From positions 1,187,720 through 1,251,719 of the forward strand of contig CM067589.1 of the NCBI GenBank assembly GCA_034336665.1: DNA of 64,000 nt, read 5' to 3'. Positions 12,500-58,627 of the stretch are shown in pieces (positions within the stretch are counted from its first letter, which is position 1; each line of letters starts with the position of its first letter). The notes below the pieces were generated by a model, which saw only the letters and a program-made list of their open reading frames with translations, made no database searches and was not told where the DNA came from. A program made the translations under genes and the position numbers. Origin of the DNA: Luscinia megarhynchos (lineage: Eukaryota > Chordata > Aves > Passeriformes > Turdidae).

Positions 12500-12565
12500 T
12501 CACAGGTTGATTCCCATCAGGTTCACCGGGCGCCCCCCGTAGCGCTTGGAGATGTCGGCCTCGAT
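12500..12565 (-). CDS. CDK5RAP3: CDK5RAP3 exon 16 (C-terminus, stop)
   Basis: Acceptor TTGTTGCAG, then 21 residues from IEADISKRYGG to the conserved GRPVNLMGINL end and a TGA stop at 12502-12500. Confidence 0.95.
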   Translation of the reverse strand: MEADISKRYGGRPVNLMGINL

Positions 12566-56200: not shown

Positions 56201-58627
56201 GCCTCACCTGTGCAGTCTGAGCCTCAGGCCTGCTGAACACAGCCATGGACACGGGCCTGGCCAGAGCCCGGGAGCAGCAGCGGAACTGAGGGACAGGGGA
56301 GCTCAGAACATCCATCCCAAATCCCAAATATCCCAAATATCCCACCCCAGAACCCTCTGCAGGGACAGGAGAGCTCAGAACATCCACCCCAAATCCCAAA
56401 TATCCCAAATATCCCACCCCAAACACAGCCCAGCACCCTCTGCAGGGACAGGGGAGCTCAGAACATCCATCCCAAATCCCAAATATCCCACCCCAGAACC
56501 CTCTGCAGGGACAGGAGAGCTCAGAACATCCATCCCAAATCCCAAATCCCAAATAACCCACCCCAAACACCTGCAGGGACAGGAGAGCTCAGAACATCCA
56601 TCCCAAATCCCAAATAACCCAAATATCCCACCCCCAGAACCCTCTGCAGGGACAGGAGAGCTCAGAACATCCATCCCAAATCCCAAATATCCCAAATATC
56701 CCACCCCAGAACCCTCTGCAGGGACAGGAGAGCTCAGAACATCCATCCCAAATCCCAAATCCCAAATAACCCACCCCAAACACCCCCTGCAGGGACAGGA
56801 GAGCTCAGAACATCCATCCCAAATCCCAAATAACCCAAATATCCCACCCCAAACACCCTCTGCAGGGACAGGGAGAGCTCAGAACATCCACCCCAAATCC
56901 CAAATATCCCAAATATCCCACCCCAAACACAGCCCAGCACCCTCTGCAGGGACAGGGGGAGCTCAGAACATCCGTCCCAAATCCCAAATATCCCAAATAT
57001 CCCACCCCAAAACACCCTCTGCAGGGACAGGGGAGCTCAGAACATCCATCCCAAATCCCAAATATCCCACCCCCAAACACCCTCTGCAGGGGACAGGAGA
57101 GCTCAGAACATCCATCCCAAATCCCAAATATCCCAAATATCCCACCCCAGAACCCTCTGCAGGGACAGGAGAGCTCAGAACATCCATCCCACCCCAAATA
57201 ACCCACTCCAAACATCCTCTGCAGGGGACAGGGACAGCTCAGAACATCCATCCCAAATCCCAAATAACCCAAATATCCCACCCCAAACACCCTCTGCAGG
57301 GACAGGGAGAGCTCAGAACATCCCCCCATCCCAAATATCCCACCCCAAACACCTTCAGTAGGGACAGGAGAGCTCAGAACATCCATCCCAAATCCCAAAT
57401 AACCCACCCCAAACACCCTCTGCAGGGACAGGGGAGCTCAGAACATCCATCCCAAATCCCAAATAACCCACCCCAGAACCCTCAGCAGGGACAGGGAGAG
57501 CTCAGAACATCCACCCCAAATCCCAAATAACCCACCCCAGAACCCTCAGCAGGGACAGGGAGAGCTCAGAACATCCATCCCAAATCCCAAATCCCAAATA
57601 TCCCACCCCAAACACAGCCCAGCACCCTCTGCAGGGACAGGAGAGCTCAGAACATCCATCCCAAATCCCAAATAACCCACCCCAAGCATCCTCTGCAGGG
57701 GACAGGAGAGCTCAGAACATCCATCCCACCCCCAAATAACCCACTCCAAACATCCTCTGCAGGGACAGGGACAGCTCAGAACATCCATCCCAAATCCCAA
57801 ATCCCAAATATCCCACCCCAAACACCCTCTGCAGGGACAGGGAGAGCTCAGAACATCCATCCCAAATCCCAAATATCCCAAATATCCCACCCCAAACACA
57901 GCCCAGCACCCTCTGCAGGGACAGGAGAGCTCAGAACATCCATCCCAAATCCCAAATCCCAAATAACCCACCCCAAACACCCCCTGCAGGGACAGGAGAG
58001 CTCAGAACATCCATCCCATCCCAAATATCCTACCCCAGCACCCTCTGCAGGGACAGCTCAGAACATCCATCCCACCCCAAATATCCCACCCCAAACCCAC
58101 CCCAGCACCCTCTGCAGGGACAATTTTCCCTGAAATCCACCCCAAAGCCCTGCAGCCATCCCTGGGAGCAGAGAGCAGCACTCCCACACCTGCCCTGAAG
58201 TGGGAACCCTCAGGAGAACCCAGCATTTGAAACTCCCCATAACCATCCCCACAGACTGGAAAAGCGAGGGTGATGAGTGGTATTAATGGAGAATGTTTCT
58301 CCTTCTGCCACTTGGATCAAGCCCGGGCTGAGCACAGCCCCAGGAATTCCCTCATTCCCACATTTCCTCCTGGAAAGAACAGGATTGCTGAGTGGAAAGC
58401 CAGGAGTTCCTGCTGGGCCCTGCAGCTCAGTGCCAGCCACTCACATGGTGTCACCAGAGGTCACCTTGCTCCCTTCCCCCTTAAACCCAGCTTAAAACAA
58501 CCTCCCAGCTGAGCCTGGCCCCAAAGGCCAGGGAGGAATCCCAAATTCTGGGGGGGATGAGCCCAGCCCTGCAGGGAAAGGCACCTACCAGAGCTGGGGA
58601 GCCCAGCAGAGCCACGGGAGCCTGCAT
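53179..58627 (-). CDS. ATP5MC1: ATP5MC1, ATP synthase c-subunit precursor, 136 aa
   Basis: Proton-carrying c-subunit (c-ring) of mitochondrial F1Fo ATP synthase, made as a precursor. Coding exons in gene order: 58627-58589 ([13 protein letters not shown]), 56285-56208 ([20 protein letters not shown] then EAQTAQ), 54839-54661 and 53293-53179. With the 54839 acceptor the frame closes at 136 residues, exactly the mammalian length, with a 61-residue presequence before the mature [20 protein letters not shown]. The last exon holds [20 protein letters not shown] and the second membrane helix [17 protein letters not shown]. The conserved acidic proton carrier is the E of ALSEAMG. The mature part is identical to the family. 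Arrays sit upstream of the acceptors of exons 3 and 4. Confidence 0.95.
53300..54100. repeat. Minisatellite (CAGGGAATAAAATCAGGGAA)
   Basis: About 35 irregular copies of GGGAATAAAAYCAGGGAATAATGCCCC in the last ATP5MC1 intron. Confidence 0.94.
54180..54515. repeat. Minisatellite (CCATTCTAAATGCCCATTTT)
   Basis: About nine copies of a ~38-base unit CCATTCTAAATGCCCATTTTAAGRGAARAA in the last ATP5MC1 intron. Confidence 0.93.
54661..54839 (-). CDS. ATP5MC1: ATP5MC1 exon 4 (presequence end and first helix)
   Basis: From acceptor [69 protein letters not shown], donor AG/GTCCGG. A nearer AG at 54803-54802 looks good but would break the frame with exon 3, so the 54839 start is preferred. Confidence 0.85.
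54840..55775. repeat. Minisatellite (GGGACACTCAGGGGACAGG) with a copied exon 4 acceptor
   Basis: About 45 copies of a ~19-base unit in ATP5MC1 intron 3. The segment 55061-55180 repeats 54821-54940 almost exactly, and so contains a second copy of the exon 4 acceptor (TGTCCCGCAG at about 55080) and its first coding bases. Confidence 0.92.
55810..56180. repeat. Minisatellite (AGGATGGAGGATCAGGGATC)
   Basis: Irregular GATGAAGGATCAGGACCAG units between the array above and exon 3 of ATP5MC1. Confidence 0.92.
56208..56285 (-). CDS. ATP5MC1: ATP5MC1 exon 3 (presequence)
   Basis: Twenty-six codons, [20 protein letters not shown] then EAQTAQ. R-rich mitochondrial targeting sequence, comparable to human IRCCTRGLIRPVSASF. 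Acceptor TGTCCCTCAG and donor CAG/GTGAGG. Confidence 0.9.
56286..58115 (-). repeat. 1.8-kb array of decoy 3' splice sites before ATP5MC1 exon 3
   Basis: About 26 copies of a 60-85 base unit. Read on the minus strand each has GGATGTTCTGAGCTCTCC (branch-point-like TTCTGAG), TGTCCCTGCAG, then AGGGTTCTGGGGTGGGATAT. The unit continues into the genuine polypyrimidine tract and AG of exon 3, so the real acceptor is the last member of the array. Confidence 0.93.
58116..58588. other. Unique part of ATP5MC1 intron 2
   Basis: Non-repetitive DNA between the decoy array and exon 2. No further exon or RNA gene recognised. Confidence 0.6.

Follow-up and report, generated by a model that had tools for sequence, protein, structure and literature searches.

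Tandem arrays at splice junctions in four neighbouring genes of Luscinia megarhynchos resemble exon stuttering

Introduction

Tandem duplication of exon–intron boundaries has been described in the chicken and in amphioxus. For the chicken, Hron et al., 2026 (PMC12954441) describe sequence stuttering of the dot chromosomes, and use the term exon stuttering for cases in which an exon edge has been copied together with its splice site into the intron. As given in that paper, exon stuttering concerns 115 genes and 236 introns, with dot chromosomes accounting for 190 of the latter; the sources lie at most 1 base from the exon border in more than 90% of cases, and the pieces are 20–187 bp long (median 36) and present in 1–44 copies. 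The same account places the median repeat content of introns at 7–93% on dot chromosomes and near zero elsewhere, finds that 86% of dot-chromosome introns vary in length, and also mentions local repeat expansions in other birds. In amphioxus, minisatellite-like duplications of intron–exon boundaries, called mirages, were described in the Adh3 and globin genes (PMC3087553, 2010), where, according to that study, regular splicing is apparently left undisturbed by them. Here, we analyse a 64,000-nucleotide stretch of Luscinia megarhynchos DNA (the window), which sits at 1.19–1.25 Mb of a contig of 6,546,373 bases (C30) in an assembly totalling 1.09 Gb in 1235 contigs. Four animal genes were found in the window by tblastn, namely CDK5RAP3, UBE2Z and ATP5MC1 on the minus strand and SNF8 on the plus strand, and their identities were confirmed against solved structures. 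An earlier reading made from the letters of the window (the sequence-only reading) had noticed six tandem arrays at exon–intron junctions of these genes. Our analysis indicates that these arrays are very probably exon stuttering, that is, a known kind of instability in a new place.

Results

Six arrays at exon–intron junctions

All six arrays of the sequence-only reading were reproduced, with 11, 10, 12, 3, 26 and 2 copies (counts include the genuine copy). More specifically, the SNF8 array (33005–33954, plus strand; genuine junction at 33919) holds 11 copies of the 3' splice site of the last exon together with about 35 exon bases. UBE2Z has two arrays, both on the minus strand: a donor array at exon 3 (42634–43184; genuine junction at 43164) with 10 copies of a 56–57 bp unit that includes 20 exon bases, and an acceptor array at exon 4 (41521–42600; genuine junction at 41575) with 12 copies of a unit of about 90 bp that includes about 54 exon bases. 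At exon 3 of CDK5RAP3 (21219–21562, minus strand; genuine junction at 21259), the acceptor is present in 3 copies with 41–44 exon bases. The remaining two arrays belong to ATP5MC1 and also lie on the minus strand. Its exon 4 acceptor (54820–55099) comprises the genuine junction at 54839 and one exact copy 240 bp upstream, at 55079, within a longer 21/42 bp stutter, and its exon 3 acceptor tract (56286–58122) comprises 26 pyrimidine-tract units, 23 of which have CAG and none of which has exon bases. The genuine junction had been described as the end member next to the intact exon in every array. This is the case in five of the six; the ATP5MC1 exon 3 tract departs from it, as its unit lacks exon bases and ends in ..CCCTGCAG/AGGG (with variants; the slash stands for the boundary), the real site being ..CCCTCAG/TTCCGC. 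This tract therefore differs in kind and is intronic stuttering only. At each of the five exon-edge arrays, the exon runs on uninterrupted past the array, and the frames of UBE2Z and ATP5MC1 are clean.

Copies within an array are closely similar, most of them being 0–4 edits from the consensus piece. All ten UBE2Z donors share a single sequence that runs from the last 20 exon bases through GTAAGC. Among the UBE2Z acceptors, the genuine and the second copies read CTCCCAG/CACATGG, and the nine copies in between have TTAACAG, followed by CACGTGG in eight and by a shortened sequence in the ninth; the first copy, which is truncated, stands 10 edits from the consensus. Such a pattern of variants would be expected if inner copies had been homogenised and the ends left behind. 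The AG or GT dinucleotide is kept in 10/10 donors, in 12/12 UBE2Z acceptors and in 23/26 units of the ATP5MC1 exon 3 tract, a retention that is uninformative on selection because the copies differ too little. Intron 3 of UBE2Z consists nearly entirely of the donor array followed by the acceptor array, with the innermost pair about 80 bases apart (42576–42659). As a possible breakpoint microhomology, we considered TGATC, which occurs to the left of the first copy and also where the UBE2Z acceptor unit ends on its exonic side; as a truncated copy would look alike, no weight is given to it.

Duplication rises smoothly from exon to intron

The window is dense in tandem repeats, which cover 61–66% of it according to Tandem Repeats Finder (TRF) and a median of 79–87% of its introns (29 introns, range 0–98%). 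For measuring duplication, a 36-mer was scored as duplicated when another copy was present within 3 kb at no more than 7 edits. With block-shuffled flanks (one shuffle each), 0/60 junction 36-mers found a match; chance similarity is excluded for the junction copies. In the actual sequence, 11/60 junction-centred 36-mers were duplicated, compared to 514/600 from intron interiors and 37/600 from exon interiors. CDK5RAP3 supplies 7 of the 11 duplicated junctions, and six of those seven fall in a cluster of exons encoding IDWG motifs (see below). Following the offset from exon to intron, the duplicated fraction amounts to 10%, 17%, 18%, 30% and 47% at offsets −36, −18, 0, 18 and 27, and to 53%, 59%, 65% and 73% at offsets 36, 60, 100 and 150, with 51 to 60 junctions usable per offset. 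The offset profile of this window shows no peak at the junction, only a smooth rise from exon through junction to intron.

We then calculated how many founders would straddle a junction if they had been placed at random before expansion. The expectation is 10.7–14.8 with the best periods given by TRF and 2.9–5.5 with the smallest plausible periods. Non-redundant TRF arrays straddle 4 junctions with at least 10 bases on each side, and the number of cases becomes 6 after adding the CDK5RAP3 exon 3 array and the CDK5RAP3 cluster (counted once), both of which the TRF count misses. A local process that amplifies splice sites had been proposed by the sequence-only reading. The local process is real; its aim at junctions is not borne out by the duplication counts or by the smooth profile, and no excess of arrays at exon edges was found inside this window, an outcome that the proposal itself had listed, for a genome-wide survey, as refuting it. 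The suggested link of this process to R-loops is likewise without support: among seven arrays (the CDK5RAP3 cluster being added to the six), five have a C-rich coding strand, one is neutral and one is G-rich, and the intron arrays of the four genes divide into 30 G-rich vs 42 C-rich.

Additionally, the chicken screen was reimplemented with blastn-short (at least 42.1 bits and at least 20 bp) on hand-annotated exons, using the plus strand only and one shuffle. It returned 32 proximal matches, in which the copy lies in the adjacent intron, 0 distal matches in other introns of the same gene and 0 matches in shuffled introns. The matches come from 5 exon edges and are located in 4 of the 29 introns, with exon pieces of 21–52 bp, and five of the six arrays pass the numerical threshold of this screen. 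A unit lying across the exon–intron boundary, as in mirages, is also found in five of the six arrays, with ATP5MC1 exon 4 contributing two copies; the ATP5MC1 exon 3 tract falls outside this definition.

A second contig carries arrays of three of the genes, some with other copy numbers

A genome search with UBE2Z exon 4 led to a second contig of 46 kb (C690), which is collinear with 28.3–62.8 kb of the window and is probably the other allele. C690 spans the 3' part of SNF8, UBE2Z and ATP5MC1, so that the comparison covers the arrays of these three genes and not those of CDK5RAP3, which lie outside it. Copies were counted as matches inside each array, leaving out background matches elsewhere. 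Both contigs have 11 SNF8 copies and 12 UBE2Z acceptor copies, and these arrays are accordingly no artefact of a single contig. For the UBE2Z donor, we estimate about 7–8 copies in C690 vs 10 in the window, the genuine exon 3 end being a poor match in C690 (30 edits/188); beyond the end of the exon, which is poorly read, seven copies are legible. In C690, the ATP5MC1 exon 3 tract has 13 units vs 26 in the window, and no repeat of the ATP5MC1 exon 4 junction rises above background (1 copy vs 2). Parts of C690 are noisy, with UBE2Z exons 3–7 at 9–19% edits. Nonetheless, the two exons flanking the ATP5MC1 tract are near-identical between the contigs (0/49 and 1/78 edits), and the difference of 26 vs 13 units can therefore hardly be read noise.

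In ATP5MC1, the introns measure 2303, 1368 and 1367 bases in the window and 1433, 1529 and 2449 in C690 (−38%, +12% and +79%). The six UBE2Z introns are less than 5% apart, and three SNF8 introns measure 1509/1486, 1668/1650 and 1240/1115 (window/C690; −1.5%, −1.1% and −10%). Intergenic lengths, in the same order, are 4588/6636 between ATP5MC1 and UBE2Z and 3433/3483 between UBE2Z and SNF8.

Most decoy sites are predicted to break the reading frame

We scored 46 decoy sites for the predicted effect of their use, leaving out the ten of SNF8 because the SNF8 frame is broken in the window. Forty-four of the 46 would introduce a stop codon or cause a frameshift, namely 9/9 UBE2Z donors, 11/11 UBE2Z acceptors, 22/23 sites of the ATP5MC1 exon 3 tract, 1/1 at ATP5MC1 exon 4 and 1/2 in CDK5RAP3. 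The 23 tract sites include one at 58111, outside the 26 units, and omit the three units without CAG. Only two decoys would leave the frame open, one in ATP5MC1 at 56570 (+285 bases) and one in CDK5RAP3 at 21538 (+279 bases). It had been suggested that the arrays form a reservoir of alternative acceptors and donors. This idea is weakened by the scores: with so many decoys breaking the frame, the arrays are unlikely to supply many useful isoforms, and use of the decoys would likely yield unproductive transcripts.

A cluster of whole exons in CDK5RAP3

IDWG, a shuffled ATG8-interacting motif, is a binding motif for UFM1 and ATG8. In CDK5RAP3, we identified a repeat cluster of whole IDWG exons, absent from the earlier list of arrays, at 14486–15237 on the minus strand. 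It contains four exons (15157–15237, 14872–14937, 14645–14704 and 14486–14561) with AG and GT at their edges, the first three being 81, 66 and 60 bases long; a single open frame runs through the last three into the next exon. Decayed partial copies are found near 15100, 15030 and 14800, with 83–91% identity over 22–47 aligned bases. The middle two exons (14872–14937 and 14645–14704) are identical at 60/60 bases and their flanking introns have diverged, a combination that suggests gene conversion or very recent copying. Four IDWG motifs are encoded by the cluster, compared to three in human CDK5RAP3, at positions 267, 292 and 310 (PMC10183829). When aligned to the human chain, the sequence shows a break around one extra unit.

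Whole exons thus lie inside the repeats, and in the chicken description repeat blocks do not cross exons, so that, in the strict sense of PMC12954441, we do not class the cluster as exon stuttering. According to the same paper, however, the chicken screen dropped candidates because of unannotated exons resembling the source exon, and whole-exon clusters could by this exclusion have gone uncounted. We put forward tentatively, as a possibility that we ourselves rate as rather doubtful, that stuttering multiplies coding exons when its unit is a whole exon of symmetric phase, and that it did so for the IDWG exon of CDK5RAP3, giving four intact motifs. Part of the cluster may instead be an ancient exon duplication.

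Gene models and extent of the repeat-rich region

CDK5RAP3 (12503–22234, minus strand) is placed by tblastn, its exon set and a match to a PDB structure; the exon at 17524–17691 is uncertain and the first coding exon is unplaced. Within its span, a 2 kb array with a 6/12 bp unit (17810–19838) has an extreme strand bias, the GC skew being −0.89 at 18001–20000. SNF8 (24083–34047, plus strand) is identified by tblastn and a structure match, and indels break its frame in the window. The exon for human SNF8 residues ~36–78 was not found by tblastn, and the region 24405–27441 is mostly simple repeat. Base accuracy of the window is poor around SNF8, where the last exon is unlike the C690 version, which is open by eye; single-base differences among the SNF8 copies are for this reason not suited to close reading. 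UBE2Z (37481–48593, minus strand) has a clean open frame in 7 exons. ATP5MC1 (53182–58637, minus strand) gives a clean frame of 136 residues with splicing at the genuine junctions.

CDK5RAP3 and SNF8 stand head to head across 22234–24083, and a gene list in a chicken paper puts GIP beside SNF8; the order seen here may reflect a rearrangement or a misjoin. A 100-base assembly gap is present at 62806–62905. Rfam gave no RNA family at gathering score anywhere in the window, and Pfam gave no domain at an E-value of 0.01 or better in 11 of the 12 flank frames (6/6 of positions 1–12600 and 5/6 of positions 58500–64000).

Tandem-repeat cover was further determined in twenty 10 kb samples along C30. 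Cover is 64%, 50%, 53%, 23% (in a sample with 17% N) and 60% at 0.1, 0.4, 0.7, 1.0 and 1.3 Mb, and 32% at 1.6 Mb. Between 1.9 and 6.0 Mb, 13 of 14 samples have 0–12%, the remaining one having 29% with half of it N. Repeat richness thus seems to belong to one end (the first ~1.6 Mb) of a microchromosome-sized contig and not to the four genes. A misjoin in C30 is possible.

Discussion

Exon stuttering accounts very well for the arrays and, in our judgement, is the highly probable explanation. In the mechanism that we infer, tandem duplication and expansion would affect stretches of tens to hundreds of bases at nearly any place outside exons. Founders would fall without clear regard to junctions, and some of them would straddle an exon edge, taking along the splice site and 20–54 coding bases. 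Purifying selection would keep the exon intact, its copy staying at the end of the array and the others becoming intronic decoys, and copy number may later drift through slippage or unequal exchange. Main splicing would then take place at the genuine junctions, use of which gives clean proteins for UBE2Z and ATP5MC1.

Several observations weigh against this interpretation. The 6 straddling cases are slightly above the lowest random expectation of 2.9–5.5, and acceptors are duplicated a little more than donors (7/31 vs 4/29). In our version of the chicken screen, the pieces of SNF8 begin 8 or 15 bases away from the border of the exon and not within 1 base of it. Moreover, the contig analysed here measures 6.5 Mb, whereas 190 of the 236 stuttering introns of the chicken are on dot chromosomes. 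Chicken chromosome 27 is not known as a dot chromosome. It is the location of chicken SNF8, UBE2Z and ATP5MC1 (PMC8774586). A mild bias towards junctions or acceptors is possible but not needed.

The number of straddling cases and the split between acceptors and donors are also what would favour a junction-directed process, in which exon edges would be the preferred places for founding arrays, through repair at splice sites linked to transcription or R-loops; so would the occurrence of six junction cases in four neighbouring genes. We regard such a process as very unlikely, given that junctions are duplicated less than intron interiors along a smooth profile, that random founders alone give 3–15 straddling cases, and that C-richness of the coding strand in five of seven arrays has the wrong sign for R-loops, with intron arrays of mixed composition. 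Slightly less likely still is that the copies were amplified for a function and are kept as alternative acceptors or donors, or as a brake giving unproductive transcripts. It is true that nearly all copies keep AG or GT and that the ten donors are identical, but this retention is expected anyway in young arrays in which most copies are so close to the consensus. The frame-breaking nature of nearly all scored decoys, the instability of ATP5MC1 copy number between the two contigs and the report that amphioxus mirages appear not to disturb regular splicing (PMC3087553) all argue against a function.

Least probable of all, to the point of being barely credible, is that the assembler invented or multiplied the repeat copies. 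An artefact of this kind could explain the frame-breaking indels in the SNF8 stretch, the last exon that is unlike its counterpart in C690 and the ATP5MC1 copy numbers that differ between contigs. However, C690 was assembled separately and has the same arrays (those of CDK5RAP3 being outside it), two of them with identical counts. Furthermore, variants within arrays are common to subsets of copies, as exemplified by CTCCCAG/CACATGG vs TTAACAG/CACGTGG in the UBE2Z acceptor array.

Read as exon stuttering, the arrays place an instability that was named only very recently on a contig of 6.5 Mb and show it between two contigs of one genome. With ten identical donors and twelve near-identical acceptors in a gene whose correct splicing is still required, the UBE2Z intron would offer a natural test of spliceosomal choice between equivalent sites. 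Confirmation of the CDK5RAP3 cluster would link the instability to changes in a protein; if stuttering did multiply the IDWG exon and copy numbers change between haplotypes, the number of motifs in an autophagy receptor would have a source driven by minisatellites.

In the open-access literature, we found no description of stuttering for any of these four genes, and none of the four is named in the main text of PMC12954441, a statement that does not extend to its supplementary gene list. As in the chicken stuttering presented in that paper, exon edges are copied in tandem, splice site included, in adjacent introns that are otherwise filled with repeats, and piece lengths and copy numbers are within the reported range. 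Length differences are seen between two contigs here and between chickens in PMC12954441. Unlike the chicken cases described there, one intron of the window holds both a donor and an acceptor array, and a cluster of whole exons is present, while the paper's account reports no repeats crossing into adjacent exons. The internal tandem repeats of human segmental duplications (PMC2812944) provide another example of gene structure changed by tandem repeats, in the setting of human paralogues. The amphioxus mirages concern another phylum and other genes, and their description (PMC3087553) does not set them within a repeat-saturated region. As in five of the six arrays reported here, however, the mirage unit spans the exon–intron boundary on its 5' or 3' side. 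In mirages, end copies escape homogenisation, as may have happened in the UBE2Z acceptor array, and copy number differs between haplotypes, with 6 vs 3 copies in one globin gene (PMC3087553), as it does between the two contigs here.

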